From a virus: 64,000 bases of DNA. The position numbers and the translations under genes are program-made. The notes under the pieces are model-generated. The model had not been told where the DNA came from, made no database searches, and was given only the letters and a program-made list of their open reading frames with translations. Positions 7,253 through 47,087 of the stretch are shown piece by piece; position 1 is the first letter of the stretch, and the number at the start of each line of letters is the position of its first letter. The stretch lies in IMG/VR virus record IMGVR_UViG_3300028802_000009, positions 1-64,000 of that record; one strand, given 5' to 3'.

Positions 7253-10200
7253 TTACGCCAAGCGCGCACGAAGATTGAAGGTCATCACGATGTAAAGCAG
7301 CGGGAAGATTGGCGAATAATACATCTCAAACCGCAGAATCGTGGGGTCATCAGGGTCGATAGACGCCGACATTCCTGTGAAGGCGCCGACGATCTCGGCC
7401 TCGACCAGCGACCGGAACAACCCGGTCATGGATGTCACCACCTCGTTGGTACGAGCCGCCAAGAACTTGGAGCCAACGAAGGAGTCCAGGATCGCGCGGC
7501 TCTGCTGATGCACAAAGTCCGCGATTTGAGTGACGGTCGGCAGACGCGTCAATATCGAGGTCATGTTGGTGGTCAACCCATGGCGGATACGGATGATTGG
7601 ATCCAAATCCTCCAGGATCGTGACACCGGCGACCGCCGTCTGATTCGCCTCGACCGGGTCCAAGACACGCGGGATCCTCGTGAAGCCCTGAATTCTCCGG
7701 TGCGTGTATGGGGTCGCTACGTCAACGGCTGGGCTCACGACAGCGCCAGAGACGGCGGCTGCGTAAAAGGTTCCGTCTACGAGGCTATCGAAAGATGCGC
7801 CGAGTTCGTCTGTCAAAGTAATGACAGCAGAGTCTGGGTAGAACGCGACGATACGACTAGAGTTCAGCGCCCTCGCGATAGACTGAACGCTGGTTGGCGA
7901 CGTGCCGGACGCAAATCCGATGAAGCCTTGGCGCTCACTTTGATTGCGCGGGTTACTCTGAATTTCGCAGTGCGCCGTGAGGTGCGTGTACACGCCCGTG
8001 CTCGTAGCCAACGGAATCACGATGCTAGGGCGGATGTTTCCAGGCAGCGGGCTAGCCAGCTCATCGATGGCGGCATTGAATGCCTGATCTGACGCCTGAT
8101 TGGTGTTCGGCATCTTGAGGACCTGCTTGATAATGATCAGCACAGCGCCGTTCAAGATCGCTAGGTAGCCAGCCAAGGTCACCCGATTCTCTGCCGAAGT
8201 ACGACCGAAGTTGGCTTCGATAGTCTTGAGCTGCTGGTAGACCTTCGCCGAGAAATCCTGCTTCATGTAGCGGTAGCTAATGAAGTAGAAGTCACCGACA
8301 GCCGGCTCAACGCCGCTCGGATTGTACGTTACAAGGCTTGCCGTATCGTTCACCCCGACGCCGACCGTGTTGGTCACCAGCAGCTCTAGGCCGCCGATCG
8401 AGTAACGCGGAATGGACGGGCTAACATGCCAGGTAGGTGTCACCTCAAGAGTGAAGGAACCAGCCGAATACGAGCCCGTCGCAGAGGGCAACACTGTGAA
8501 GCGCAGACCCGTTCTCGCGTCCGTATAGGTCTGACCCGGAATGCCAGTGCCGTTCGATCCCACCGCGATACCAGCCGAGCTGCTTACCGTGTAGATCCCC
8601 TGCGCGGCCTCTCCAACGTCTCCATCGGTCAGCGGGTTAATGCCCGTACCCGTGGTCGGATTGAATGCTGAACTACCCGAGTCAACGAAGCCGATGCTAG
8701 ATGTCGTTGCACCCGTCGTCAGCGACTCGATGGTGATGAAGTCCTGTCCGCCGATAGAATCGACATAGGCCACTGCACCACTCGCGAATCCACCGGTGCT
8801 CATCAGTGCGTTCACGACCTCCTGAGCCTCGACCAAGCTCTGGCTCGCCGAGGCGTTCTCATTGAAGCCGAGCACCGCGTTGGCGGAACCAGCCTTGATC
8901 ACGAGCGAGGAACTTGGGTCGTTAGTCGTGCTAGTGAGGCGAATTTTGCCCTCATTAGCATGAGGAAGAGCCGGAAGAACAGCGGCGGGCAACGTCGATG
9001 CCACAGCGGGAACAACTGCGTTGATCGCATTGACCACGGCAACGGCTGTCACAGCAGAGCCAGCAGGCAGCGTCACATTATAGTCGACCCCATTCAACCG
9101 GAAGTTGAACTTGTCATTCAAATCAGCGGTGATACTGAATGGCGCCGCTCGCGAGCCCAACAGCGTTGCTGGCTTGTTGATTGCCCCCGGTGAACCACTT
9201 GCCGAGTCATACGCTGTGAAGCCCAGCAGGGATTCGACCGTACCTTGGTCGATCGTGATATTCGAGATCGTATCAAACCCGGCCGGAAGCGCAGGAGGGG
9301 TCACCGTGCTCGTGATGATGAAGAATACATCTCCCGTGCCAACCTGCTTGAAAGTAACGACAGCATCAGAACCGGGGGCGTCCGCCAGAGCGATGCCATT
9401 CGTTATAGCAGTAACGATGTCGGCAGGAGTCATGGAGGTTGCTGGCGTAAGCTCGATAGGCGGCACGACGGTGCCGTTAACCTTCAGCTTGAGCACGTTT
9501 CCGGGAGCATCCGGAATCGGAATAGCACCAGCGGTCAGAGGGACGCGCGCACCGACCAGAGTCGCGGGCGACGGGGTCACCAAGTTCGTAAGCGCGGGAG
9601 CGCCGTTGACTTCGGTCTCCCAGTTCGCCGAGAACGGGCTGTAGAAGGAGTACGGCGCTGCACCCTTGTTCGTGTACGCTGCGTTCGTAGCAACCGAAGT
9701 GCCAAAGGCAACCGTTACTACCTCCGAGACTGGCGTGCCAGCACCCGTATGGAACGCATCAGGAATCAGCTCCGAACCGCGAGGCCACTGGATAATCTCA
9801 GCAGTGCCAGACTTGGAACCAAACCGGACCTCGAACAGATCCTTGTTCTGCGTGGTTGAGAATACCGTGTACTGCCCAGCTCCGACCGCGCCTGGTACGA
9901 CGTTCGTAAAGATGTACGTGTCGTCTGCCAGACGGCTGTAATAGAACGTCGCATACGCATGATAGTCAGGCGGCTGCGCCGTCTTGAGCTTGAAGCGGCG
10001 GGTAGTTCCGTCGAGTTCGAGAACCTCGACTGCCGGGCGATTCAGCGCATCGCGCAAGTTGCGCCCCGTGTAAACCTTCACGAGGTCCGGGCGATTCGTC
10101 ACCAGATCTTGACGGCTGTTGGAAACTGAGTTGAACGTGCTCAGACCAAGTGTGGTGCTGCGGCCATTACCCGTGGTCGGGACCTCCGGCAGCAAATAGT

Positions 10201-11584
10201 CCGTGGCGGAAAGCGTAGCTGGGATCGTGGTCGTATCAACGACGCGCGGGCAGTCTCCCAGGTACATCACGTCGTCGATCAGAGTTCCAACGATCTGACC
10301 ACCAGAGCCGGTCGAGCCATCGAATGGCGTCGCACCAGGAGTCGTCGCAGATGCAGTAACCTGAAAGCTCGACCCCCAGTTGATCACGCTCACATCCGTA
10401 GATGGATTGCTGACCACGAAGTCCGTGCCCTGGATGAAATCGTTGCGTCCCGGCGAGATACCGCAGCGCAGCACCGTCGTGACCAGACTGTTAGGCAGAT
10501 AGTCAAACGTGTCCTGCCAGGTGTTCGCCCAGTATTGGATCGTGACAGTCGACCCCATAGCCGGAGCGAAAGGCAGCGTCACGATACCGGCACCGCCGTT
10601 GACCGCCTCAGCGACTACCTGGAATCCGTCAACCTTTGCGACCACCTTGGAAGGGTCAGTCGTTGTCGTCCCGCCGCCCGTACCGTCCACAATGGGCCGC
10701 TGAAACACGCGGAAATCGCGGTTACGGTTTGTAGTGGCACCCGTGGTCCAACCCAGCGGACCATTTGCCGAACCATCCCCAATCGTGATGCCGAACGGAT
10801 TGGTCAGCCGAAGATGGTCGCGACCCTGGTTGTCAGTGAACACAGACGCCGAAAGGTTCGGCACCTGAGCCCCATTCACAGTGGAGGCGATGGTAGCCGC
10901 CGACAACGCGCCACCCGGCAGCACGATTGTCGCCGTTACGGCGTTGGCGGTAACAATGAACTGGTCATTGACCTCCGTGACGATGTTGAACCGATAAGCG
11001 CCCGGAGCCGGGAGGATCGTGGAATCAAATGTGCCGTAACCCGGAGACACCAACGTGGCGTTCTCCGTAGACACCTGCTCCGAGACATCATCCGTGAACG
11101 CGGTGTCCCCGCGATGAAAGTAGTAGGTGACCCGAACCTGGTCATTCGGCTGGGTCGGGATCTGAATGGTCACCAGACCCTTCTGGCCGTTGAGACTGCC
11201 AAGCGACACCGGCGATCCGTTCACAGACACAGAAGCCGCTCGAACATCGTTGGTGACACGGCCAAAACCCTGCCCGTCCACGATGGGGAAGTTACGGACT
11301 CGGAACGTCGTCAACGTCCCGTCCTGAGCACCCAAAAGCAGATTGTTCGGATTCGTCGAGTCTACAACCCAGCTCTCAGACACATCTTCATTGACGATCT
11401 GCTGGTCTACGGTTGCCGACGACCCGCGGACAAGCTCAAAGTCAGTCTGCTCCAACTCCTCCTGGCCCACCCCAATCAACGCTGGGATCCGAAGACCCGC
11501 AACCAAGTTTGACGCGTTCGTCTCTGTCAGAGTGCGGGTATAAACCCCCGGAGGCGCGTAAGAAATGAAGGGACCCAATGCCAT
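7253..11584 (-). CDS. Tail sheath protein, unusually large
   Basis: This is the contractile outer layer of the tail. At 1443 residues it is roughly twice the size of T4 gp18 (659). The N-terminus has YAPPGVYTRT, typical of sheaths. The last ~160 residues have IIRIRHGLTTN, PTVTQIADFV and VGSKFLAARTNE, the conserved C-terminal sheath domain. The middle is expanded by at least three beta-rich modules, near residues 195-285, 690-790 and 810-900. Each runs from a short strand such as KFNFRLNGVDYNVTLP through a helix like VNAINA to an LGF or LGW ending, reminiscent of hook-type repeats. Surface-exposed insertions are a reasonable reading. The start has AGGAG nine bases upstream. It is preceded by a 172-base gap, long for this region. 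Confidence 0.93.
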   Translation of the reverse strand: MALGPFISYAPPGVYTRTLTETNASNLVAGLRIPALIGVGQEELEQTDFELVRGSSATVDQQIVNEDVSESWVVDSTNPNNLLLGAQDGTLTTFRVRNFPIVDGQGFGRVTNDVRAASVSVNGSPVSLGSLNGQKGLVTIQIPTQPNDQVRVTYYFHRGDTAFTDDVSEQVSTENATLVSPGYGTFDSTILPAPGAYRFNIVTEVNDQFIVTANAVTATIVLPGGALSAATIASTVNGAQVPNLSASVFTDNQGRDHLRLTNPFGITIGDGSANGPLGWTTGATTNRNRDFRVFQRPIVDGTGGGTTTTDPSKVVAKVDGFQVVAEAVNGGAGIVTLPFAPAMGSTVTIQYWANTWQDTFDYLPNSLVTTVLRCGISPGRNDFIQGTDFVVSNPSTDVSVINWGSSFQVTASATTPGATPFDGSTGSGGQIVGTLIDDVMYLGDCPRVVDTTTIPATLSATDYLLPEVPTTGNGRSTTLGLSTFNSVSNSRQDLVTNRPDLVKVYTGRNLRDALNRPAVEVLELDGTTRRFKLKTAQPPDYHAYATFYYSRLADDTYIFTNVVPGAVGAGQYTVFSTTQNKDLFEVRFGSKSGTAEIIQWPRGSELIPDAFHTGAGTPVSEVVTVAFGTSVATNAAYTNKGAAPYSFYSPFSANWETEVNGAPALTNLVTPSPATLVGARVPLTAGAIPIPDAPGNVLKLKVNGTVVPPIELTPATSMTPADIVTAITNGIALADAPGSDAVVTFKQVGTGDVFFIITSTVTPPALPAGFDTISNITIDQGTVESLLGFTAYDSASGSPGAINKPATLLGSRAAPFSITADLNDKFNFRLNGVDYNVTLPAGSAVTAVAVVNAINAVVPAVASTLPAAVLPALPHANEGKIRLTSTTNDPSSSLVIKAGSANAVLGFNENASASQSLVEAQEVVNALMSTGGFASGAVAYVDSIGGQDFITIESLTTGATTSSIGFVDSGSSAFNPTTGTGINPLTDGDVGEAAQGIYTVSSSAGIAVGSNGTGIPGQTYTDARTGLRFTVLPSATGSYSAGSFTLEVTPTWHVSPSIPRYSIGGLELLVTNTVGVGVNDTASLVTYNPSGVEPAVGDFYFISYRYMKQDFSAKVYQQLKTIEANFGRTSAENRVTLAGYLAILNGAVLIIIKQVLKMPNTNQASDQAFNAAIDELASPLPGNIRPSIVIPLATSTGVYTHLTAHCEIQSNPRNQSERQGFIGFASGTSPTSVQSIARALNSSRIVAFYPDSAVITLTDELGASFDSLVDGTFYAAAVSGAVVSPAVDVATPYTHRRIQGFTRIPRVLDPVEANQTAVAGVTILEDLDPIIRIRHGLTTNMTSILTRLPTVTQIADFVHQQSRAILDSFVGSKFLAARTNEVVTSMTGLFRSLVEAEIVGAFTGMSASIDPDDPTILRFEMYYSPIFPLLYIVMTFNLRARLA

Positions 11585-12187: not shown

Positions 12188-13369
12188 CTATTTGATGCGC
12201 TCGAAATCATAGTTACGGCCGATGATCACTGGCATGGTCGAGAACACCAGGCTGTTGTTCACGTCACCGATAATCGCGGTACGGCCAGCGACACCCGGCA
12301 CGTCGCGCTGTGGGTCCGTAGTGACAACACTGATCGTCAAAGGCAGCGGCTCGTGGACTTCCCATGGGGTTTGCAGCTGGAGACTCAGAGAGGCCGTGTA
12401 GAAAAACTCGTCCCCGGTCTCATCCGCCACTTCCTCAGCTTCGCCGCCAATCGAGACATCCACTACTTCGATCCCCTCTGCGGACAGCTTCGGTCTTTTT
12501 TGGTAGAGCAAATACATCATCGTGAGGTCCGCCAGCTCTTCCATCTGGTGAGGGTCGCGGGCAATCACGTCCATCTCAAACGTAAGGTCGAAGCGCCCAC
12601 CATACGCATTGGCCGTCGGTGTCCTATCATCGTAGACCACCACAGCGACCTTATCGCCGGGCTTCCCCCTCTTACCAAAAGCAAGCACCACCCCCGGCAA
12701 CGTCCTAAAGTCGGAGGTGTTCCATTGATACGTAACCGGCCCGATGGACGCGACGGGATAGCGATAATCCGCGGTGACCACAGCGCCATGAGAAAACCGC
12801 TCAAGGAAGGTCACCTCTCCCGTGGCGTAATCCACCGCATAGTGCTTGCCCTCGACCAGTCGATAGTTGCGGTTCTGCCACATGCGTAGCGTCCCCTGGA
12901 CAGGCAACTGTTGCAGCTGTCCGAACGTCTCGATGCCCGACAAGAATCTGATGACCGGCTCATCATTGACGGTGAGCAACGGGTCGATCATGAACTTGCC
13001 AATCGACTGCGCGTCCGCCGGAGCCTCAAGGATCTCCACATAGTAGATCCCCGGAGGCAGAGGCATTCGGCCCCCGTGCAGGTCAAGATGGGCCGCATCT
13101 TCAACCACCCACTCAAGTGGGAAGGTCGGCGCACCCACGTAGCCAAGCATCACGTAACTGTTCAAGGTGCCGATGAACTGGTCAGCTGAGAGCGAGACCT
13201 TGTTGGCAGAAGCCCCTTTGACCACTATCCCGAACTGCGGACGCTCGGCGAACGAGTACTTATTCTCAATATTGGAAACGATCTTGTTATAGACGGGGTG
13301 CTGTGCAAACGAGTCTTTTAGCTCAAGAATGAGCCGGCGCTTCATTGCGTTGAGCAGATTATAATACAC
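12188..13369 (-). CDS. Virion structural protein, possible neck or tail-terminator type
   Basis: A 393-residue protein starting at a GTG at 13369 with AAGGG six bases upstream. It begins helical (NLLNAMKRRLILELKDSF), continues as beta-rich sequence with HYAVDYATGEVTFLE, a strand-turn-strand motif common in phage virion proteins, and contains DLTFEMDVIARDPHQMEELAD. Strand followed by helix in such an order is found in tail terminator and neck proteins, which close the tail tube and join it to the head. It is two genes upstream of the sheath in transcription order, where neck genes are expected. No enzymatic motif or signal peptide. The structural role is likely; the exact neck position is inferred. 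Confidence 0.65.
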   Translation of the reverse strand: MYYNLLNAMKRRLILELKDSFAQHPVYNKIVSNIENKYSFAERPQFGIVVKGASANKVSLSADQFIGTLNSYVMLGYVGAPTFPLEWVVEDAAHLDLHGGRMPLPPGIYYVEILEAPADAQSIGKFMIDPLLTVNDEPVIRFLSGIETFGQLQQLPVQGTLRMWQNRNYRLVEGKHYAVDYATGEVTFLERFSHGAVVTADYRYPVASIGPVTYQWNTSDFRTLPGVVLAFGKRGKPGDKVAVVVYDDRTPTANAYGGRFDLTFEMDVIARDPHQMEELADLTMMYLLYQKRPKLSAEGIEVVDVSIGGEAEEVADETGDEFFYTASLSLQLQTPWEVHEPLPLTISVVTTDPQRDVPGVAGRTAIIGDVNNSLVFSTMPVIIGRNYDFERIK

Positions 13370-13390: not shown

Positions 13391-14404
13391 CTAGACCTGA
13401 CTGTGCTCCTCGGTTGCCAGCACAAGGAGCCCTTCAGCGACGGCGGTCATTGGGTCTTTGGCAGCCCTGACTTCGCTGATCTGAATCGGAAAGCCCCGCT
13501 TCTTGATTGCCTCGAATTCCTCCATGAACACTTCCATGAAGCCTCCGGCGCGAGTCGTGCCCCCGCTGAATACGAAGGGGATAGGCTCCGGCAGGTTGAT
13601 CCCTGCCTGGTTCTTTCGGAACTGAAGAGCGATGTTCTCTAGCACGTACTTGATCAGAGACCGAATATAGAGGGCGAGTGCCTCTTCTTCACGAGATTTG
13701 GGCTCGGCGAGATCAACGCCCTTTTCCTTGATGGCGCACATGCGAGCCGACGTATTGCCCACCGCCTTTGCAGCGTGCGAATCAACCCAGTCACCTCCGC
13801 GTGCGACAGAGAAATCCATGCCCTTGATCGTCTGATAAGCCAGCGCAATGTTGCCCATACCAGAGCCAAAGCTCACGGACAGACCAGAGAAGTTCTCCGC
13901 GGCACATTGCGAGTAGATGATCGCCATGGCCTCGTTCATGGGATGGGGCGTGTATCCAAGCTCACCCAAGATCTTCCGAAAGACCTCTTGGTGATAGATA
14001 ATATCCTGAGCGGTATCATCCACGGGCGACGCCGGAACACTGTAGTAGCAATGCTCCGCCTTCACGACGGGATCGCCAATGACATTTGAAATCAGCAAGC
14101 TGAGAATCTGCTGGGCATCCAACTCCCCAGCCGCAATCACGCCCTTGCTCAATGGCCGGCGCACCTCTCGGTTGAACAGATTAGCCATGGTCAGCGCGGA
14201 GTCTCCGAGTACCACCAGAGTTCCTTGGCGCTCTACGTAGTCGACCTTGGATAGGCGGAGCGTCTTCTTGGCCTCCAGATCCAGGTCAAGAAATGCGTCC
14301 CGAATTCGCCTCAGCTCCAAGCTATCCCCGTCCGCCAACTGGCGAGCTGAGACAATATTCATGGTGCCTAGGTCGAGCCCACACGCGGGCTTGTATTTTG
14401 ACAT
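13391..14404 (-). CDS. Actin-like ATPase (ParM/MreB/Hsp70 fold)
   Basis: A 337-residue protein with the nucleotide-binding signature of the actin superfamily: phosphate-1 GLDLGTMN at residues 9-16, connect-1 MNEAMAIIYS near 156-165, phosphate-2 SFGSGMGN at 178-185, a GGDWVD element near 203, and adenosine motif FSGGTTRAGG at 279-288. Family members bind ATP and many polymerise into filaments, for example to segregate plasmids or organise cells. I chose ATG 14404 over 14416 because GGAG lies at good spacing from the former. It sits among connector and neck-type genes next to a Dps-like gene. A filament that positions phage DNA or capsids, or a chaperone-like role, are both possible. Similarity to ParM rather than MreB is not resolved. 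Confidence 0.85.
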   Translation of the reverse strand: MSKYKPACGLDLGTMNIVSARQLADGDSLELRRIRDAFLDLDLEAKKTLRLSKVDYVERQGTLVVLGDSALTMANLFNREVRRPLSKGVIAAGELDAQQILSLLISNVIGDPVVKAEHCYYSVPASPVDDTAQDIIYHQEVFRKILGELGYTPHPMNEAMAIIYSQCAAENFSGLSVSFGSGMGNIALAYQTIKGMDFSVARGGDWVDSHAAKAVGNTSARMCAIKEKGVDLAEPKSREEEALALYIRSLIKYVLENIALQFRKNQAGINLPEPIPFVFSGGTTRAGGFMEVFMEEFEAIKKRGFPIQISEVRAAKDPMTAVAEGLLVLATEEHSQV

Positions 14405-14442
14405 CTCTATCTCCATCCTAAAGCCCTGTGCTTGGGCGGGGT

Positions 14443-15090
14443 CTAACGACTATCGTAACTGTAGGCTTCCCGGCCCCCGTTACGCTGCTGCAGCAGGTAA
14501 ACGAATTCTTCGTGCTTATCTGCTACACCTTGAAGCAAGTTGTCAGTGCCTGAACTCAGGCAGTTCTTTTCCTCTAGCCGGGTCCTTGCCGTCTCCAAGC
14601 AGTCGAGCACGCATCGCTCAACCTCAAGACTTTGTCGCACCATCTCGTCCGGGGATGGTGGCACAGGTGACCGGCACCAATGGCGAACCAAAACCGGGAT
14701 CATATCGGCCTGCAGCTTCGGACAAACGAGCCCGTCACCCCCCGCTCCGACAGCTCTCTCGGCAACCTGGTCAATGAATCCGACCGACTCGTTGTAGAAC
14801 CGCTCGAACAACAAGTGGTCTCCGTATTGAGCCGTGCCACAGGTCTGCCAGTGGTGACTCTGATGTACCAGTGCAGCGGCGCGCAGAATCCCGACCAAAA
14901 CACCAAGCTCCTCAACACCGGCCCCCGCAGGCATCGTCTTCGCAAGAAGAGACACAAGGACGCCGCCTTCCATGGAGGCCGTTTTAGCCCTGGATTCTGG
15001 AAGATAGGGCGCGCCATTCTCAGATGGCTCGAAAGCCAGCGGGTCAACCCAGAGAGCGTGAATAGAATCTTGTGCCATCACCTTCACCAA
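14443..15090 (-). CDS. Dps/ferritin-like protein with conserved ferroxidase residues
   Basis: A 215-residue protein whose middle matches Dps. It has H80-W81 in SHHWQT, H92 and E96 in DHLLFERF, and D107 and E111 in FIDQVAER. The spacing 12, 4, 11 and 4 is exactly that of E. coli Dps H51, H63, D67, D78 and E82, the intersubunit ferroxidase centre, with E replacing D67. Dps proteins form 12-subunit shells that oxidise and store iron and protect DNA. Here there are an extra 60 or so N-terminal residues and a cysteine-containing middle. The frame opens at TTG 15090; GTG 15087 or ATG 15078 are alternatives. It overlaps the preceding gene by seven bases and is followed by the actin-like gene. Fold confidence is good; iron chemistry is inferred. 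Confidence 0.78.
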   Translation of the reverse strand: MVKVMAQDSIHALWVDPLAFEPSENGAPYLPESRAKTASMEGGVLVSLLAKTMPAGAGVEELGVLVGILRAAALVHQSHHWQTCGTAQYGDHLLFERFYNESVGFIDQVAERAVGAGGDGLVCPKLQADMIPVLVRHWCRSPVPPSPDEMVRQSLEVERCVLDCLETARTRLEEKNCLSSGTDNLLQGVADKHEEFVYLLQQRNGGREAYSYDSR

Positions 15091-15782
15091 GACCTACCCG
15101 GAACGTCGATAACGATGAAATGGAACTCGGCGCTCTGAAACCTGACTTCGCTCTGCCGGACCAACTCCGGGTCCATGGCTCCCACAAGGTCAGCCCGCGA
15201 CAGGCGCAGCAGCCTAGATTGATGAGCCTCAATCAGCATGGCGTCGAATTTGGACCGCTCCATACGCGGAAACCCGCGATCCTTCACGCTAGAGATGAAA
15301 ACGTGCTCCTCGTAGTACTTCTTGCTTTGAGGTGACTTCGCGACGGCCAGCGCTTTAGCCGCGAACGCATGCAGGTCCTTCGGGTCGTCAGCATCATCCA
15401 TCTTGGAGTCGGACTTGGTCTCATCCGCCTTCTCTTCCTTCAAGATCTTGCCGATCTGAGACGGCATTATCTTCTTAGGCTTCGTGGTGAATCCAGGTCC
15501 GCCGTAGGGCGAGCGAACAGTAGTCGTGATCTTGCGGTCTAGCCAAAACATGTTCCCCTCGGGATCCGTGTATTGCCAGAGCACCGCTTGACCAGCCGCC
15601 AAGTGCGTCGCCCCACCGCTTATCCGGTCGACGTAGTCAACCAAGGCCATTACGTGGCCTTTCTTTGGTATCGCCCTAGTCTCACCACGCGCAGCGGTGC
15701 GGCGCTCCGAAGGAGGCTTGCCAGAGACCATAGCTGTCAAAGCTATAGCCCCCACCGATACATTAGCTTGACGTGGGTGCAT
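15084..15782 (-). CDS. Hypothetical protein with conserved C-terminal domain
   Basis: A 232-residue protein. ATG 15782 is preceded by GAGG at eight bases; an internal ATG at 15650 (MALVDYVDRI) could also be used. Residues of about 45-100 look globular. Residues 105-145 are a highly charged linker rich in K, E and D. Residues 155-232 form a compact domain with KYYEEHVFISSV, MLIEAHQSRLLRLSRADL and VGAMDPELV, then AEFHFIVID. The helix-helix-strand order looks like a winged-helix-type module, but I cannot name the family. The stop overlaps the Dps-like start, so the two are likely co-translated. Confidence 0.65.
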   Translation of the reverse strand: MHPRQANVSVGAIALTAMVSGKPPSERRTAARGETRAIPKKGHVMALVDYVDRISGGATHLAAGQAVLWQYTDPEGNMFWLDRKITTTVRSPYGGPGFTTKPKKIMPSQIGKILKEEKADETKSDSKMDDADDPKDLHAFAAKALAVAKSPQSKKYYEEHVFISSVKDRGFPRMERSKFDAMLIEAHQSRLLRLSRADLVGAMDPELVRQSEVRFQSAEFHFIVIDVPGRSW

Positions 15783-16470: not shown

Positions 16471-17013
16471 TCAGCTAGACTTCCTCATGGATTTGCGCAC
16501 TTGCTTCGCCACCTCGACCCTAAATTTCTTACGCAGAAACTCGCGAGTCTCTTCCTTGGCGCGCTCTATAAAGTCGGATGGTGGTCTTCCTGGATGCAAC
16601 CAGCCTTTTTTCCGCCCAACATTTGGCCCTGTCATCGGCCCTTGCGTCCAAGTCAACGACCGCGCATGAGCGCTCCGGAAAATCAGCTTTCCTGTCTCCG
16701 TGATGATCGGGATTGGGCGCCGAGCCTTCTTGAGCCACCTCATTTGCCCACGCTTTTGGCCTAGCACGAGGGCGTGAAACCCAGGATGGTCGGTTGTCAC
16801 CACAAGAGACGCCGGCCGGGCCTCGATCTGAATGGATTTGACAAGGGACTTCTTGGCTCTGACCGAGTACGTGGTCTGCGTGAGCTTACGCTTGAGACGG
16901 ACCATCAGTTCCCGGCGTGCTTTACGCAAGACACTGCTCATATCGCCGATGGTGATCCCGTGCGGGAACAACGGCTTTACCATCATGCGGGCGGCTATGA
17001 CCTTCTTGCCCAT
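16471..17013 (-). CDS. Head-tail connector or tail-completion-like virion protein
   Basis: A 180-residue very basic protein. I start it at ATG 17013, where the A is shared with the previous stop (TAATG); the frame extends a little further to 17034. A central region GFHALVLGQKRGQM is followed by RRPIPIITETGKLIFR and a GPMTGPNVGRKK loop, then a C-terminal helix. The layout resembles small head-tail joining or tail-completion proteins of the HK97 gp10 type, which sit at the neck. Context agrees: neighbours are structural and the sheath is downstream. The specific family is inferred. Confidence 0.55.
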   Translation of the reverse strand: MGKKVIAARMMVKPLFPHGITIGDMSSVLRKARRELMVRLKRKLTQTTYSVRAKKSLVKSIQIEARPASLVVTTDHPGFHALVLGQKRGQMRWLKKARRPIPIITETGKLIFRSAHARSLTWTQGPMTGPNVGRKKGWLHPGRPPSDFIERAKEETREFLRKKFRVEVAKQVRKSMRKSS

Positions 17014-18374
17014 TAGTACTCGATGTTCTCCCAAACCTTAGTGCGGCCTCTAAGCTCCCGCTCATTCGGAATGTTTGGCTTCTCCGTGATGCTCGTATCG
17101 GCCTCGCGCTCGGGTCCGGACGGTGCGAATTGCACGGCCGCGAACTTCACTGGGTTGCCGACCGGAACCTGGTAACGGATGTCCTTCTCATCGAGGTGGC
17201 CGATGTTGAAATGCTGCTGAAGCACCATGCCGCGATTCGAGGGGAACCGAACGGCGCCTATCGCGTATCGCTCACCGTTGAGCTTCACCACGAAATCGCG
17301 CTGCGACAAGATAGGAGCCGGCCCTGTCCACACCTCATACGCGTGTTCGACAGTGCGCCCAGTCTCCTTTTGAGAGATACGGCGCTCTGCATCATCAGGT
17401 GCAATCAAGGCATCGTAGGGTCCCTCGTACCCACCTAGAAACCCGGTGCCGTAGCACTTGGGACAGTCGTTGATAGGCTGCTTGTGATACCCGTCCGGGA
17501 CGCACGAGCAAGGAACGCCGACGTGCTTGCGTAGAAATATCTTCACCCGCTCGCCGCCTTGCTCCAGGATGAAGCGATTGCGACGCACGGATTCGCGCCA
17601 GATGTAGTCGAGTTTTTCGATCTCCATCGAGTTCGTGGCGGTCGCAAACTCAATAGGTGTCTCGATCAAGTCTTCGCATTGCACCTGACTGAGGTCGCAG
17701 CCCACGCGAACACCGACACTAGTGACGCGATAGAAGACACGCTGCCCGAGATCCGTTCGTACCAGCTCGCGATTACGCCGATACGTGCAGGTTACCGTGC
17801 TGTTGGGTCCTGGCACCAAGGCCGGGTCGTAGTTCTGCCGCGCCACGTCCGCATGGACGTACGGGTTGATCTCTACTTCGCCCGAAAACCCGTGCACCGC
17901 CAATGGAGTGACAGTGACTCCGTCGATTTTGACCCAGACATCATCCGGCAGATCTGCTGTGACAGCTTGCGAGCCCTCGCGCACGATCGGGCTATGCAAT
18001 GTCTTGAAGACCCAACGCGGTGCGTCCGGACCGGCAGCCGACTCTCCTTCGCCTTTGAGAACGAACCTGTCCGTGACATCTTCATCTACGATCAGCTCGT
18101 TATCGGTCTGGTCGCGCCAAAAGTTGCTACAGATGAGCAACTCTGAGATGCGCTCAAAAGGTCCGTACTCAGAGTCGAACGAGCGATAGAGGTTGACCCC
18201 GAGCAGCTGGTAGAGGCTGTTCAAGGCAAGTGTCGCTGGGGAGTCCCACCGGAGATCAAAGATTCCGGGCCGGTACCCACTGGTCATAAAAAGATTGAGC
18301 GGGGGCAGCGGCCAAGGAGTCTTTGTGTACTCTAGCTCTGTGGTGTTCCAATCGCGATTTGATGCGTAAGGCAC
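17013..18374 (-). CDS. Virion structural protein with a zinc-binding knuckle
   Basis: A 453-residue, mostly beta protein. Residues 30-80 contain a fibronectin-like stretch (GIFDLRWDSPATLAL, NLYRSFDSEYGP). Near residue 289 there is CSC, followed by CPKCYGTGF at 304-312, giving C289, C291, C304 and C307 in a DnaJ-like zinc knuckle. The remainder is beta-rich with VKLNGERYAIGAV. Comparable proteins in large phages are neck or baseplate-associated structural components. No signal peptide. The next gene starts within its stop codon, so the two are coupled. Zinc binding is likely; the site in the virion is unknown. Confidence 0.65.
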   Translation of the reverse strand: MPYASNRDWNTTELEYTKTPWPLPPLNLFMTSGYRPGIFDLRWDSPATLALNSLYQLLGVNLYRSFDSEYGPFERISELLICSNFWRDQTDNELIVDEDVTDRFVLKGEGESAAGPDAPRWVFKTLHSPIVREGSQAVTADLPDDVWVKIDGVTVTPLAVHGFSGEVEINPYVHADVARQNYDPALVPGPNSTVTCTYRRNRELVRTDLGQRVFYRVTSVGVRVGCDLSQVQCEDLIETPIEFATATNSMEIEKLDYIWRESVRRNRFILEQGGERVKIFLRKHVGVPCSCVPDGYHKQPINDCPKCYGTGFLGGYEGPYDALIAPDDAERRISQKETGRTVEHAYEVWTGPAPILSQRDFVVKLNGERYAIGAVRFPSNRGMVLQQHFNIGHLDEKDIRYQVPVGNPVKFAAVQFAPSGPEREADTSITEKPNIPNERELRGRTKVWENIEY

Positions 18375-18723: not shown

Positions 18724-19602
18724 TTACACCAAAAGCTTCCAGACCGCGTCGCGCCACCAGCTGGCAACGCGCTTTAGCCACTGACGCGGAGTTGCGAGCG
18801 GCGCCTCTGGCTGCGGCTCCTCTGGCGGCGGCGCTGGCGGTCTCGCCTCCTCCACAAGGGCACGCATTTTGATGGGGTCTCCGGTCGCCCGATGATATCG
18901 GCTCGCCAGGTGTCCGTTCATACCGGGACGCTCCTGCCCCTCCCACATCTTGTTGGACGCATTAAACCCGATGCTCGGGTGCCACAGATGCAAGACTTCG
19001 GCATTCAAGGTCTTGTGCTTGCCGTACAACGTGTCGACAGCTCGCACGAAGGCCACGTCCTCACCACCCCAACCTTCGAATCTACGGTCCATGCCGCCAA
19101 CGCTCTCAAAAGCCTCTCGGGGCATAATTTGCACCATCGCCCCGAAATGGTGACCATACGTGGCAGTGGTCATTGACTCCACGTCATCTGGTGACGGCGG
19201 TGACGGCAACCTAACCGGCCACTTCGGGTCTGAGTTCAAGATCAGCTCCGTACTCGCCTCTACGAGACGGTACAAACGACGGTACGGAATGAACCAGCGG
19301 TTTTGACCTCGACGAGCCGACTCCTCGATGGCTCGCGCAGCCCGAAGAATCGTATCGCCCCGAAGATAGGCATCAGAATCCAACAACACAAAGATGCGGC
19401 CATGTGCCTTCTTGGCAGCATCATTGAGCGCCTCAGTCTTAGAGAACGCCGCGGCCGTAGACGTGCCGATCACGACCTCCGCGTCGGGCAACTCATATTG
19501 CCAATAGGTTCGCAACCAACTCCACAGGCGAGTCCGGTGTGGCGACGACGCGCTGGCCCGAAACGGAACCAACAATGAGATTTGCGGTCTAGGATAGCTC
19601 AT
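18724..19602 (-). CDS. GT-A family glycosyltransferase
   Basis: A 292-residue glycosyltransferase of the GT2/GT7-like GT-A fold. It begins ISLLVPFRA, has DSD at residues 75-77 (the metal and sugar-nucleotide-binding acidic motif), and carries GGMDRRFEGWGGEDVAF at 169-185, the galactosyltransferase-type C-terminal motif found in polypeptide GalNAc-transferases and bacterial capsule enzymes. H205 and H208 may complete the metal site. It should transfer a sugar from a nucleotide donor. The C-terminal 45 residues are proline-rich and then a basic, tryptophan-rich helix (WLKRVASWWRDAVWK) that could bind a membrane. It overlaps the polysaccharide pyruvyl transferase gene upstream by ATGA, so the two probably act together. 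The acceptor (virion protein, phage DNA or host glycan) is unknown. Confidence 0.88.
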   Translation of the reverse strand: MSYPRPQISLLVPFRASASSPHRTRLWSWLRTYWQYELPDAEVVIGTSTAAAFSKTEALNDAAKKAHGRIFVLLDSDAYLRGDTILRAARAIEESARRGQNRWFIPYRRLYRLVEASTELILNSDPKWPVRLPSPPSPDDVESMTTATYGHHFGAMVQIMPREAFESVGGMDRRFEGWGGEDVAFVRAVDTLYGKHKTLNAEVLHLWHPSIGFNASNKMWEGQERPGMNGHLASRYHRATGDPIKMRALVEEARPPAPPPEEPQPEAPLATPRQWLKRVASWWRDAVWKLLV

Positions 19603-20351
19603 TTGGACAACCCCGCCAGTTTGCGCCCGTACTCTTCGAACACGTCGAAAAGTTCGTGCTGACGATCTTGGACCTTGTAGCGATGCGCCTCCTGAGTCAC
19701 CCCAACCTGAAAGGGGACGCCAACGGCGGCACAGTGATCGCGGAACTTGAAGTCACCGCCCTCCTTGGCAAACCTCTCCGTCATCTCGATTCTTCGCGGG
19801 ATACCAAAGGCATCCGCCACGATGATCCCGTGAAGCGAGGAAGAAACGATCTTCCGGCACTCCCCGATCTTACGGATCACCTCAAGTGGGTCCTCCGTTG
19901 GACGAATGATCACGGGATTGTAACGCGCGAACTCAGGACGTAGCTCCAACGTCGTATCCGACCAATGCGGAACTAGCCCGAGCGCGTGCTTCTTTTCCTG
20001 CCGTGGGACAAGCTCGTCGGCAAGAAGCCCAGCGTCACCAAGAACAAACTCCTTCTTCACACCCTTGACGCACTGAGCGGTAAGCGGCCCACGCAACGCC
20101 AATACCTGCGCTCGCGACAGATCAATGCTGCTGCCCTCCTTCAATTTGCCAGAGCCAATGATCGTTCCGGACCAGCCCGGAGGAAGATGCTCAAGGACAG
20201 AACCGACGCAGACAAAACTAGCTTCGCTCACTGGAGCCCAAGCCACCTCTAGATCGGCAAAGTGTGACAGCAACAACGGTGTCAAAAGATCGCCGAAATT
20301 AGGTCTTCCCCGCCACCAATAGCCAAGAGGAGCTACGCGAGAAGAAAGCAT
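19599..20351 (-). CDS. Polysaccharide pyruvyl transferase family protein
   Basis: A 250-residue member of the polysaccharide pyruvyl transferase family (CsaB/WcaK type). It has NFGDLLTPLLL at residues 18-28, a strand ending CVGSVLEHL, LALRGPL near 85-90, GDAGLLAD near 105, and the hallmark SSSLHGIIVADAFGIP at 170-185. These enzymes transfer pyruvate from phosphoenolpyruvate to sugars, or occupy related roles in polysaccharide biosynthesis. The protein is shorter than most (around 300 residues) but keeps the main motifs. ATG 20351 has GGAG ahead of it. Its stop overlaps the glycosyltransferase start, which argues for one glycan-modifying unit. Uncommon in a virion operon. The substrate cannot be told from sequence. 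Confidence 0.85.
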   Translation of the reverse strand: MLSSRVAPLGYWWRGRPNFGDLLTPLLLSHFADLEVAWAPVSEASFVCVGSVLEHLPPGWSGTIIGSGKLKEGSSIDLSRAQVLALRGPLTAQCVKGVKKEFVLGDAGLLADELVPRQEKKHALGLVPHWSDTTLELRPEFARYNPVIIRPTEDPLEVIRKIGECRKIVSSSLHGIIVADAFGIPRRIEMTERFAKEGGDFKFRDHCAAVGVPFQVGVTQEAHRYKVQDRQHELFDVFEEYGRKLAGLSK

Positions 20352-21602: not shown

Positions 21603-22520
21603 TTAGAACCCGATGAACTTCTGCGGGCTCAACACTCCGCGGCCCACGTAAGGACCGAACGCGCTTCGCAGTCCCATGCCAAACCGGGGCTGCTGCAGAC
21701 CCTTGATGATGTTGACCGTCGCCTTAGTGTTCTCTAACTGCTTATCAAACTGGTCTGACAGCGACGAGAACGCGCCCTCATACTTGCTCGACTTCTCCAG
21801 ATCGAGAGAAACCCCGCCAATTGAGTAGTTAAATTCGTCAACTATCCAATTCAATCTTAGCGCTTGGATGGCAAACATCATTGCTCCAGTTAGGAGTAAG
21901 GTGCGCCACTCAGGGCGGAACATCACCATCTGATCGACCGTCTGAAACGGAGTGCGTGGGGGAGCCGATGAAATCAAGTCAAGCGAACGTGCCAAGTACT
22001 CCTGCAACTCCACATCTTCCCAGATGTAACCAAAGACCCTACTGAACTGTTGTACCGTTTCTTCGTGTGAAGGTGGCCGAAAATGGTAGTTGCGATCTGG
22101 ATTATTATCCCTAAGCAGGATTCTCAGCCGCCCCATGAGATCGTACTCGATCGCCGTCGCATTGATCGCTCCCCCGGTGATCATGCTCGCGCTGCTCGTC
22201 GACAAGCCGGCCTTGTCGGTGACCGAGAACTCCTGCACCACCTGTTGCTGCGCACCGCCGATGATCTCGCGGAACGTCCAACGGACCCGGTATTCGCCGA
22301 GATTGGCGTCAAGCGGGACGATAATGCTCGCAAAATACTCCCCGACCGAGGGGTTAGCCGGGATACGCATGGGAATGCCGACTAGCACCTCTTGACCCGT
22401 CGTGAAGTCATACAGGGCGTACGAGATCTCCGCGGCATTCACCGGAGTGTTAGCGGCATTCACCAGATAGATGTTTAGGTCATTCCGGCCAAGCTGCTGC
22501 CCTCTGTAGAAGTTAGTCAT
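21603..22520 (-). CDS. Virion structural protein with Ig-like N-terminus
   Basis: A 305-residue protein. Residues 1-105 look like an immunoglobulin-like beta sandwich (DLNIYLVNAAN, ISYALYDFTTGQEV, GEYRVRWTFRE). Residues 125-305 are mostly helical, with NNPDRNYHFRPPSHEETV, MVMFRPEWRTLLLTGAMMFAIQ and a final helix-loop. An Ig-like domain followed by a helical body is common in baseplate, neck or head-decoration proteins of large phages. It lies in a run of small virion proteins. The structural role is likely; the precise location is unknown. Confidence 0.65.
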   Translation of the reverse strand: MTNFYRGQQLGRNDLNIYLVNAANTPVNAAEISYALYDFTTGQEVLVGIPMRIPANPSVGEYFASIIVPLDANLGEYRVRWTFREIIGGAQQQVVQEFSVTDKAGLSTSSASMITGGAINATAIEYDLMGRLRILLRDNNPDRNYHFRPPSHEETVQQFSRVFGYIWEDVELQEYLARSLDLISSAPPRTPFQTVDQMVMFRPEWRTLLLTGAMMFAIQALRLNWIVDEFNYSIGGVSLDLEKSSKYEGAFSSLSDQFDKQLENTKATVNIIKGLQQPRFGMGLRSAFGPYVGRGVLSPQKFIGF

Positions 22521-28991: not shown

Positions 28992-29876
28992 CTACTTATC
29001 TGTGCAAGTCAGGGGTGCCCCGCGACCAAGAGCACACGCATCCTCGTATCCAAGCTCGATCAGCTCGCGCATGGCCTTCGGCTCGAACGTCAGGCCGTCC
29101 CCCGCAATCCTGCCCAAATCGATCTTGGGCTTAAGGACGCGCAGAGTGACCTTCCGGTAATCTGTATCGGCGTTTCTTAGCTCGCAGATCTTCAGGTCGT
29201 CACGCATGACCTCGTTGATCAATAGATTGACGGCCCGGAGCGCGAGGTCCGGAATCGCCGCCTTCCCTGCGCATTTGAAGGGGGATGGGAGCCGTGGATC
29301 AGTGCACAAGATCATGTCGATCTCGGTCGCCCCAGCCCGGACGGCCTCCCCCAACGGGGTCACGGACCGGAGTGCCCCGTCCGCCCAAAGCCCCCCATCA
29401 ACCTTGACCGGCAGAAACATCCCAGGGAACGCCGAAGACGCGAGCACCCAAGACAAGATGTCCGGCTCGGTCTCGTCCACTGTTCGGCTCTCACCCGACT
29501 CCCAAGAAACGGCCAGAACGCGAAGCTTCCGCCCCGAGTCACGGATCTTCGCGGCATCCAACGTGCCACGAACCCATTTGTGCAGGGGCTCCGAGTTATA
29601 GACCGATGGTTTCCATAGAGCCGACCCCATGCCAAAAGGCCACCAGGACTTGCGGACCTTGGCAGTAGTCACATCCAGCCAAAAGCGATTGAGGTGTACC
29701 CATGCTTCCATGGGAGCGCCCTTTGGCGACTGACACAGCACCGCGGCGTTGAGGGCGCCAACGGAGACGCCAGAGATTAGGTCGTAGTCGACCCCGTCCT
29801 CCGCCATCCACTTCTTGAGAACGCCTGTCTCGTACGACCCCTTGGACCCGCCCCCGCTAAGAACCAAAGCTCTCAT
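28992..29876 (-). CDS. Patatin-like phospholipase
   Basis: A 294-residue patatin-family lipid acyl hydrolase. It has the oxyanion loop SGGGSKG at residues 7-13, the nucleophile elbow GVSVG at 36-40 with S38, and the catalytic aspartate in DGG at 160-162. These three elements are the S-D dyad of patatins (cleavage of phospholipid acyl chains). Length is normal for a single-domain bacterial member. The start is MRALVLSGGG, with no signal peptide, so the enzyme is cytoplasmic or virion-packaged. It lies between two fibre-type genes in a late operon, which suggests a role in lysis, membrane entry or membrane remodelling of the host. The patatin call is very secure; the role is inferred. Confidence 0.95.
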   Translation of the reverse strand: MRALVLSGGGSKGSYETGVLKKWMAEDGVDYDLISGVSVGALNAAVLCQSPKGAPMEAWVHLNRFWLDVTTAKVRKSWWPFGMGSALWKPSVYNSEPLHKWVRGTLDAAKIRDSGRKLRVLAVSWESGESRTVDETEPDILSWVLASSAFPGMFLPVKVDGGLWADGALRSVTPLGEAVRAGATEIDMILCTDPRLPSPFKCAGKAAIPDLALRAVNLLINEVMRDDLKICELRNADTDYRKVTLRVLKPKIDLGRIAGDGLTFEPKAMRELIELGYEDACALGRGAPLTCTDK

Positions 29877-43193: not shown

Positions 43194-44858
43194 TTAGACC
43201 TTCCAGGGATCTTGACCCCTGCTGGCAGTGCTTGTCCTAGCTTCCTTGAACTTGTCCTCGTACTTATCGGTGTTGGCTTTCCATTCCTTGGCAGCGTCCT
43301 CGGACATGTTGTCCGTCGGATCGGCGGGCTTACCTTCCTCGAAACGAGACTCCTTCTCATCCGAAGCGGACTTGAACTTGTCTTCGTACTTATCGGTGTT
43401 CGACTTCCATTCCTTGGCGTCTTCTTCGGACATGTTGTCAGTAGGGTCGGCTGGCTTGCCTTCCTCGAACTTTGACTCCTTTTCATCCGACGCGGAGCGC
43501 AGTAAGCCTTTAGCTTCACGGTTGATCAGCCTCTCAGCCTCTCTTGAGAGAACATCGGCGTTCGCTTCCAACCCATCTACGGATACCGACTTGCGACCCA
43601 TTATTACCTGAATCGCGCCAAGCCCCTCTTCATCAATCGAGACGAGACAGCTGATGTTGTCCCCCGGATCACTCTCCCGCTCAGCAACCTCCAACACTAC
43701 CCCGCCGCCGAAATCACGACGGATCTCCGTGAGCAAACTCGGATACAAGCGGTTGAACCTGGCTTCGACCCTTTGCAGGACATCCCTATCGCCCGCAGCA
43801 GACTTCTTGAACTTGTCCTCGTACTTATCGGTGTTGGATTTCCACTTCTTGGCGTCCTCTTCGGACATCCCCTCAGTAGGATCGGCGGGCTTGCCTTCCT
43901 CGAACCGAGACTCCTTCTCATCCGATGCAAGCACCAGCGATTCGAGCACATCGGGCTTCAGATAGCGCCGCGCAAGACGCACGCCCTTGCTCATGCGAAT
44001 GGCTAGACCAGCCACATCGTTCGCCCCAACGCTGTCACACATGAGCCCGATCTCCGAGACAATGCTCGCCAGCTGATCGAAGGCTTGCCGCATCTGGTTG
44101 CCAGCCGCGCCTCGGAGGTAAGCGATACGAGCGGCCCCGCGGATATACTCAAACCCTAGAGCCATGTTGTATGGCCCGTCGACCCCAAGCTCGCCAACGT
44201 CAGCCTTCTTTGGACGCTCCGACGCTTTGACCTCAATGGCATCGCCCAGCACTCGCCGGAGAATAGCCGCCACCATCAAACGACTAGGACGGCCCTCATC
44301 CTTGCTGAGACCAGCAACCAGTCGGCGCAACGTCACAGCCACCTCCTGGTTGGACGACGCGGTACGTACCGAGTCTCCTTCAAGGGATGCGATCAAGCGA
44401 GTCAGAGACTCCGTATCGATGTGCCCCGTTTTTTCGATCTCAGCGGCGACGTGCGTCAACTGTGTGGCAGCTTCTTCAACTCTCATGGGTGACTCCGGTT
44501 GTGATGACTTTCTCTTTACTCGACGTACACGGACGTCTTTCAAGGCGTCCTCCAGCTGTTCGACCTTCTCAGGCCTGAGGTCGTCTTTGATCTCCTCGTA
44601 ATCCCATCGCGCTACAGCCATCGCCGCCGCATCCAAGGACTTGCTCACGCGCATCAAAGTGTCCGGGATCGCATGCAGCAGATGACCCGCAACCTCAAAA
44701 AACTGGTCACGATGGTCAGACTTCTCGATGAGCGTTGAAGCCTCCTCGATGTAATCTTTGAGCTGATTGCAGCGAAGCCGAGCATCGCCAATCTCCTCTA
44801 GTAGGAACACGGAGATTCCCGAGGCTGTTTTGACTTGCTTCAAGCACCGATCTTCCAA
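43194..44858 (-). CDS. Head-region protein with three copies of a 40-residue acidic repeat
   Basis: A 554-residue, mostly helical protein starting at a TTG with GAGGAG nine bases upstream. It contains three copies of a repeat: ASDEKESRFEEGKPADPT, then MSEEDAKEWKSNTDKYEDKF, near residues 312-350, 459-497 and 500-540. The last two are adjacent. A segment of about 100 residues between copies 1 and 2 has IRRDFGGGVVLEVAERES, a mixed alpha/beta part. Several K/R-T/S-A-S motifs occur (VKTASGIS, RTASSN, RSASDEK, KSASDEK). Repetition and acidity suggest an internal head or core protein cut during maturation. No family recognised. Confidence 0.65.
   Translation of the reverse strand: MEDRCLKQVKTASGISVFLLEEIGDARLRCNQLKDYIEEASTLIEKSDHRDQFFEVAGHLLHAIPDTLMRVSKSLDAAAMAVARWDYEEIKDDLRPEKVEQLEDALKDVRVRRVKRKSSQPESPMRVEEAATQLTHVAAEIEKTGHIDTESLTRLIASLEGDSVRTASSNQEVAVTLRRLVAGLSKDEGRPSRLMVAAILRRVLGDAIEVKASERPKKADVGELGVDGPYNMALGFEYIRGAARIAYLRGAAGNQMRQAFDQLASIVSEIGLMCDSVGANDVAGLAIRMSKGVRLARRYLKPDVLESLVLASDEKESRFEEGKPADPTEGMSEEDAKKWKSNTDKYEDKFKKSAAGDRDVLQRVEARFNRLYPSLLTEIRRDFGGGVVLEVAERESDPGDNISCLVSIDEEGLGAIQVIMGRKSVSVDGLEANADVLSREAERLINREAKGLLRSASDEKESKFEEGKPADPTDNMSEEDAKEWKSNTDKYEDKFKSASDEKESRFEEGKPADPTDNMSEDAAKEWKANTDKYEDKFKEARTSTASRGQDPWKV
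43240..43497. repeat. Two adjacent 42-codon direct repeats (third copy at 43805-43931)
   Basis: Two adjacent DNA blocks encode almost the same 42-residue segment, with a third copy about 310 bases further right within the same gene. Long runs of bases are shared between the copies, so the expansion seems recent. Copy number could vary between relatives. Confidence 0.7.
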
Positions 44859-46205: not shown

Positions 46206-47087
46206 TCAGACGCGAGTGATAACCACACGGGTCAAACCACGCGGGTTGAATGCACCGATACCGAGATTCTCGAAGCACGAGAAACCGATCGTGCGCGCCT
46301 TCGGGTCATCCGCCGAAAGAACGGTGATCTCGGTACGAACCGGGATACGACCAAACTGCTCAGGCTCGCAGCAAACATATGTGAAGCCGGCAGGTACGAG
46401 ACGCGACGTGATGATCTGAGCGCCCCAGATAACTGCCTGGAGACCAGTCTTCAGCAACGTGGCCTGGCTCTCAATGTCCAGGATGTCGCGACCGAACTTA
46501 CGAATGTCAGCGTAGTCGACCGCGTTCATGTAGATGCGAGCGACGCGCAAGTCGTGACGCTCGATCTCGGCAAACGCGTCAGCAAGAACTGACGGGCTGA
46601 TGGGGGCGACGACAGGAACGTCCGCGTTCGTCTGACCAGGGAGTGTGTCGAAACCAGAGACAGCGATGCTATCCATGATTGCAAACGTCCGCTCGTCTTC
46701 CGCGGCCTGAATCTGTGCCTTCGCAAGATCCTGAGCGCGCTCGATCAGATCGAATCGACGCTCCTTGATCTGCGTGAGTGGGATCTCCGGGTTCGAGGCA
46801 ATCTCGAACAGCGGGAAGATCACGCGACGTGGCTTCTGGATCGCAAGGATGTTCTCGCCCTCTTCGCCGACAACGAACGCCGTAACATCCGGGTCCTTGT
46901 CGTAGATCGGGAGAGCACCATCCGGAAGCTGCTCGACCAAGAAGGTCTTACGACCTACGGCCGAATAGTCGCGGCGCAGACGCAAAGGCTGCACCATCGA
47001 AGCAGCGAGCTTCTGGCGGCCAGCAGCGGTCTTGATGTACTCACTAATGACCTGCTGCTTGAGCTGGTTAGATACTTGGTGTGCCAT
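46206..47087 (-). CDS. Major capsid protein, HK97-like fold
   Basis: A 293-residue protein. The N-terminal arm (residues 1-45) is helical, with SEYIKTAAGRQKLAASM, which could carry a cleavage site near residue 20. The body has FLVEQLPDGALPIYDKD, RRVIFPLFEIASNPEIPL, ERAQDLAKAQIQAAEDER (a spine-type helix), YMNAVDYADIRKFG and WGAQIITSRLVPAGFTYVC. These match the layout of small HK97-type capsid proteins: N-arm, E-loop, spine helix, P-domain and A-domain. It follows the scaffold and small virion genes and ends at a strong terminator. The AGGAAAAACC-ATG start is good. The assignment is strong on order and fold-type motifs. Confidence 0.88.
   Translation of the reverse strand: MAHQVSNQLKQQVISEYIKTAAGRQKLAASMVQPLRLRRDYSAVGRKTFLVEQLPDGALPIYDKDPDVTAFVVGEEGENILAIQKPRRVIFPLFEIASNPEIPLTQIKERRFDLIERAQDLAKAQIQAAEDERTFAIMDSIAVSGFDTLPGQTNADVPVVAPISPSVLADAFAEIERHDLRVARIYMNAVDYADIRKFGRDILDIESQATLLKTGLQAVIWGAQIITSRLVPAGFTYVCCEPEQFGRIPVRTEITVLSADDPKARTIGFSCFENLGIGAFNPRGLTRVVITRV

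Follow-up and report, generated by a model that had tools for sequence, protein, structure and literature searches.

A tagged Dps-type mini-ferritin gene in the neck module of huge phages: a predicted ferroxidase and candidate head cargo

The stretch of DNA analysed here (64,000 nucleotides; the window) comes from a huge, soil-type phage and carries at 14443-15078, on the minus strand, the gene of a Dps-type mini-ferritin of 211 amino acids, read from an ATG at 15078 to a stop codon at 14443. The open reading frame was confirmed at 14443-15090 (minus strand) when counted from the TTG (15090) chosen in the initial annotation, and all residue and codon numbers below are counted from that TTG. 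The ATG is the likely start rather than the TTG, since the corresponding Met is the first residue in the relatives L001, L002, L003, L008 and L009 and a GAAGGTG stretch is found ahead of the ATG. The gene product contains the Dps ligand set H-x11-H-x3-[DE]-x10-D-x3-E, and the pattern H-x11-H-x3-[DE]-x10-[DE]-x3-[DE] occurs just once across all six frames of the window, i.e. in this gene; being unique and conserved, it was not attributed to a chance motif. The dN/dS values (0.09 versus L009 and 0.12 versus L001) indicate that the gene is under purifying selection. One scan of genome contigs for a cellular origin of the gene returned zero relatives.

The gene is embedded in a module of neck and tail genes, whose names are taken from the annotated genes of Tunturi_5 that their profiles match. 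Throughout the core group of related phages, the contigs of which reach 529 kb, the row of genes reads connector (21603), 18414, minor tail/neck (17013), 16471, 15822, 15084, Dps, volactin, tail terminator (12188), zinc ribbon (11757) and sheath (7253), with single genes of the row missing or undetected in some members. In the window, where the four genes named next lie on the minus strand, family HMMs matched the head-tail connector protein (21603-22520) to Tunturi_5 gp319 (E=9e-35; also phrog_17327), the minor tail or neck protein (17013-18374) to gp322, ‘minor tail protein’ (E=7e-46), the tail terminator (12188-13369) to gp324 (E=1.4e-24; phrog_123, E=0.0036) and the tail sheath (7253-11584) to gp326, ‘tail sheath’ (E=5e-67). 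The location among connector and tail genes, as initially proposed, is thus upheld by homology to annotated genes and by an order shared across the group. The gene just upstream of Dps (15084-15782, minus strand) has an N-terminal SERRTA/A motif (here and below the slash marks the putative cut) and is found in many, not all, module members. The next gene downstream (13391-14416, minus strand) encodes an actin homologue of the volactin family (PF25216, E=7.3e-73, 246 bits), which is kept in more phages than module-borne Dps, including LR745208. The PF25216 family cut-off was passed by one of 14 control genomes, presumably that of Haloferax volcanii, the organism in which volactin was reportedly described. 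Phages are nowhere mentioned in the volactin paper.

The head genes, also on the minus strand, comprise those of the major capsid protein (46206-47087; phrog_2522, E=3e-49), with KTA/A at residue 19 conserved in relatives, of a probable scaffold (47838-49136), so called because it is charged and placed between capsid and protease, with three KTAS/RTAS motifs, and of the head maturation protease (49188-50738; phrog_18299, E=4e-10). The capsid protein groups the window phage with huge metagenomic phages and with two isolates, phage G and Tunturi_5, which are the nearest cultured ones by this protein but lack a module-borne Dps; no phage of the group itself was found among deposited isolates. Among other open reading frames of the minus strand, one at 28992-29876, starting MRALVLSGGGSKGSYETGVLKKW and with the look of a patatin-type phospholipase, lies among tail genes; two at 18724-20351 resemble, by eye, a glycosyltransferase and a polysaccharide pyruvyl transferase and form a neck-module insertion restricted to the window phage and a few close relatives; a C-terminal OAS1_C match in 43194-44858 (20.3 bits, cut-off 19.9) is likely due to chance.

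The initial reading of the protein as Dps/ferritin-like is borne out at several levels. In the profile search PF00210 (Ferritin) scored above its cut-off (E 1.5e-6, 28.7 bits, cut-off 24.5), the best PHROGs were phrog_3636 (DNA binding protein) and phrog_858 (starvation-inducible regulator), and phmmer against PDB chains found Dps chains best (E 7e-5), headed by 2d5k, a ‘Dps family protein’. An alternative identity, DUF5856 (PF19174), was rejected at 19.8 bits against a cut-off of 34.6. An AlphaFold2 model of the monomer, built with 22 sequences of the family itself, has a mean pLDDT of 81, exceeding 90 in the ferritin core and low in the tag and linker; its helices (56-78, 82-111, (120-134), 143-170 and 176-200) make up the four-helix bundle with a short BC-loop helix that characterizes the Dps family. 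The top Foldseek matches by E were Dps, many phage Dps proteins were among the matches to viral predicted structures, and structure prediction together with fold search, the checks suggested at the outset, therefore yielded a confident ferritin-like bundle that matches Dps. In VIA, bacterioferritins scored level with Dps (Z 17.7), so that the fold alone does not separate Dps from bacterioferritin; it is the sequence matches and the ligand spacing that favour Dps over ferritin or bacterioferritin. The Dps-type fold and site can be regarded as nearly certain, and the protein appears to be a Dps-family member of a new variety, which would be expected to form a dodecameric, catalytically active cage.

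The ferroxidase ligands H80, H92, E96, D107 and E111 (codons 80-111, 14758-14853, minus strand) are all present exactly as first listed. Of the 76 distinct family domains collected, 73 cover the ferroxidase site, and H80, H92, D107 and E111 are invariant in all of them (73/73), a retention in relatives on which the earlier reading had been staked; the patterns used to scan for relatives included DH[LQ]L[FY][EDM]R[LVI]Y or ADKHEE, so that the conservation of H92 and of position 96 is partly favoured by the search, while D107 and E111 are free of such bias. Position 96 is E in 52 of the 73 relatives and D in 16 (i.e. acidic in 68), and is M in five (L006, L012, L015, L019 and L075), so that diiron activity may not be complete throughout the family; in L148 and L149, two divergent relatives detected with a profile, it is Q. 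The E at this position had been listed as a conservative D-to-E change: the residue is indeed there, but 2d5k also carries Glu where E. coli Dps has D67, and E96 thus falls within natural variation. H76, W81, D91, D191, H193 and E194 are likewise invariant or nearly so, the last three forming part of the DKHEE stretch of helix 4 (codons 191-195, 14506-14520, minus strand), where they are nearly invariant; H76/H79 together with H193/E194/E195 would be candidates for a second metal site. On these grounds the protein is probably an active ferroxidase. The conserved ligands would also suit a role in iron acquisition or denial, by which the cage would strip the host of iron or bring iron into the virion and on to the next host, and published discussion of iron in phage particles goes by the name of ‘Ferrojan horse’; as the surroundings of the Dps gene showed no recognisable gene for siderophores or iron uptake and there is no pointer to a receptor-binding role, such a function is considered quite unlikely.

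The distribution of the gene bears on its relation to the module, into which Dps is an insertion. One member of the core group (L113) keeps the module with no Dps between the 15084-like gene and volactin, and the Dps gene thus looks dispensable. Further away, L136-L142 and L147 have the neck, volactin and tail genes with no Dps there, and Tunturi_5, which has neck and tail genes, matches neither PF00210 nor PF25216; Dps is therefore unlikely to be structurally required, and an essential structural part was rejected as a candidate because the module occurs without Dps. Recruitment of a ferritin fold as a structural part of the neck or collar, its ligands retained solely for folding or for metal-stabilised assembly, would account for a gene that sits among neck and tail genes throughout the core group. 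It fares badly with the phages just listed, with the Dps of LR745208, about 140 kb from volactin, and with the strict retention of the ligands even in copies outside the module, and is judged most unlikely; the structural shell contemplated in the initial annotation is disfavoured on the same grounds of modules devoid of Dps and ferroxidase ligands strictly kept.

Dps copies without a tag occur away from the module in LR745208 and in the genomes of L136 and L140, and phage G has a PF00210 gene distant from its capsid genes. In the tree, the outside-module copies cluster but form no single clade (four label changes, versus 16 when shuffled), and moves of Dps between genomic sites have probably happened, with long branches leaving the details unsure. 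As to variants of the protein, the Dps encoded by L003 (5013-5912) and L004 (4509-5417) is longer at the C-terminus by about 85-90 amino acids, and the tagless Dps proteins of L148 and L149 have long C-terminal extensions with [RQ]xFxExGAxxN in common, which may be another tag. A chaperonin-like open reading frame (L028, 5151-6698), GroEL-like by eye, is found near the tagless Dps of LR745208.

Two features were overlooked by the earlier reader, namely the actin-family neighbour and an N-terminal tag with a putative cleavage motif. The tag, IHALWVDP...NGAPYLP (codons 10-31, 14998-15063, minus strand), is conserved in module-borne relatives with the consensus WxDP...GPPYLP, in which W14, D16, P17, G26, P28, L30 and P31 are nearly fixed. 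It is restricted to module-borne versions, being missing from Dps proper and from those relatives outside the module that were examined; it was found nowhere else in the window and, in the 255-kb relative G008, only in the Dps of that phage. The variable linker between tag and ferritin domain contains KTA/S (codons 36-39, 14974-14985, minus strand), which would fit a head-maturation cleavage motif [KR]xA/[AS]. Such a motif is present in the linkers of 39 of 48 distinct sequences, compared with 6.4 expected from shuffled linkers (at most 15 motif-bearing linkers in 500 shuffles), figures to be read bearing in mind that tag and motif had been spotted in a subset of the data on which they were then tested in full. 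The narrower [KR]TA[AS] occurs 16 times in window proteins versus 2.2 expected; in G008 it occurs 16 times versus 2.7 expected in genes shared with the window and five times versus 3.3 expected elsewhere (shared versus other genes, Fisher p=0.0016). The capsid motif is kept in 65 of 65 relatives, in a protein that is highly conserved throughout, and that at site 381 of the probable scaffold in 66 of 68, in columns more conserved than their flanks; poorly kept sites are those of the 44929 protein (10/36 and 7/35) and scaffold site 405 (9/68). It is from such sequence patterns, together with the head maturation protease gene, that [KR]xA/[AS] is put forward as a candidate maturation cleavage motif. 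[KR]TA[AS], enriched in structural proteins of the window and of G008 (L150-L162), is also a candidate head-protease signal for huge phages.

Residues 1-34 of the protein include two K/R versus five D/E, the calculated pI is about 5.0 (5.2 without the tag), and a search of the gene product for a Lys/Arg-rich DNA-binding tail found none; an acidic protein lacking a basic tail gives no indication of direct DNA binding. Since such a tail is optional rather than defining, its absence is no bar to membership of the Dps family, and the title of the PDB entry for A. tumefaciens Dps (1o9r) describes protection of DNA without binding.

The mechanism that can be envisaged is as follows. The mini-ferritin would be produced together with the virion proteins, and the tag WxDP...GPPYLP would direct it into the assembling head, where the head maturation protease would cut the tag off at [KR]xA/[AS]; the ferritin core would then stay in the particle beside the DNA and possibly be delivered along with it. 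By oxidizing Fe(II), ideally with H2O2, and storing the iron, a Dps-type mini-ferritin would take away both Fe(II) and peroxide and spare the DNA from Fenton chemistry. In this scheme iron oxidation, judged likely, and capsid packaging, judged plausible, are predicted steps, as are the dodecamer, the cleavage and the delivery. The fixed module position, the tag and the cut-like motif favour travel into the head and trimming of the tag. Association of the mini-ferritin with the virion seems evenly poised between yes and no, and its residence inside the head in trimmed form is appreciably less assured; the whole, an active mini-ferritin that is targeted to the head and trimmed at maturation, is tentatively offered as the best explanation. 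It is rather doubtful whether one may go as far as a large group of huge phages packaging a protease-trimmed Dps ferroxidase inside the head by means of a dedicated tag, with a particle that protects itself against oxidative damage and may inject the protein along with the genome, and an actin-family gene co-inherited beside it.

The chief rival is action solely in the infected cell, i.e. an ordinary intracellular Dps, an accessory ferroxidase that shields replicating phage DNA or host machinery from iron and peroxide. The late-module location would then reflect expression timing, and the tag would be used otherwise, e.g. to bind the volactin filament or a neck product. Tagless relatives located outside the virion module, beside replication and metabolic genes (L093, L105 and LR745208), fit this possibility, as do the similar interpretation given to Dps genes of gut phages (PMC8008677) and the strong induction of host dps during YerA41 infection (PMC7354516). 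What it leaves unexplained is the presence, in module-borne copies, of the tag and of a [KR]xA[AS] linker matching the motif of the structural genes, and also the fixed position in the neck module; it is given real weight, if somewhat less than an even chance.

Phage Dps proteins are already known (PMC2853527, PMC8008677), and a literature search for Dps with jumbo or huge phages did not find this protein. With respect to the literature and collections searched, what appears to be new is the fixation in the neck module beside a volactin-family gene, and a tag with a cut-like motif. If packaged, the protein would act as a ferroxidase carried by the virion, a way of protecting the genome that was not met with in the searched literature, and its tag would offer a ready-made address for loading cargo into giant phage heads. 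If not packaged, it would still clearly exemplify a phage Dps gene that has become fixed among virion genes with its active site under strict selection. In both cases, the residues to be tested are precise, namely the cut after A38 and H80, H92, D107 and E111.

Among known systems, bacterial Dps proteins or mini-ferritins (PF00210; e.g. P. aeruginosa PA0962, 8ff9; Nostoc Dps4, 5hjf/5hjh; S. coelicolor DpsC, 4cyb; and E. coli 1dps) share with the phage protein the four-helix ferritin fold, the order and spacing of the HW...H...[DE]...D...E ligands and a similar core length, at an identity of about 16-24%. Compared with them, the phage protein adds the N-terminal tag and the linker motif, has no basic DNA-binding tail, displays nearly invariant HxxHHW and DKHE motifs and is encoded in a phage neck module. 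The Dps fold is also common to other phage Dps-like proteins (phrog_3636, phrog_858, A0A6J5RS28, and those of Lactobacillus phages LP65 and Semele, Campylobacter phage CPT_0123 and ‘Gratiaviridae’), for which the literature searched holds no report of virion-module fixation or of this tag; the nearest in fold is A0A6J5RS28, from an uncultured Caudovirales, with 30% identity over the aligned part. Direct homologues are the tagless Dps proteins of related huge phages (LR745208.1, 485 kb; L148 and L149; the L093/L105 group), which keep H, H, D and E but have no WxDP...GPPYLP tag and a different genome location. In large phages, the internal proteins of T4 and the inner-body proteins of phiKZ are packaged in the head and trimmed by a protease; at their N-terminus a short targeting sequence precedes a cleavage motif that capsid and scaffold proteins carry as well. 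Although the motif differs and the proteins are unrelated, the mini-ferritin, if packaged as predicted, would enter the head with a similar layout, i.e. a tag followed by a motif that it shares with capsid and scaffold.
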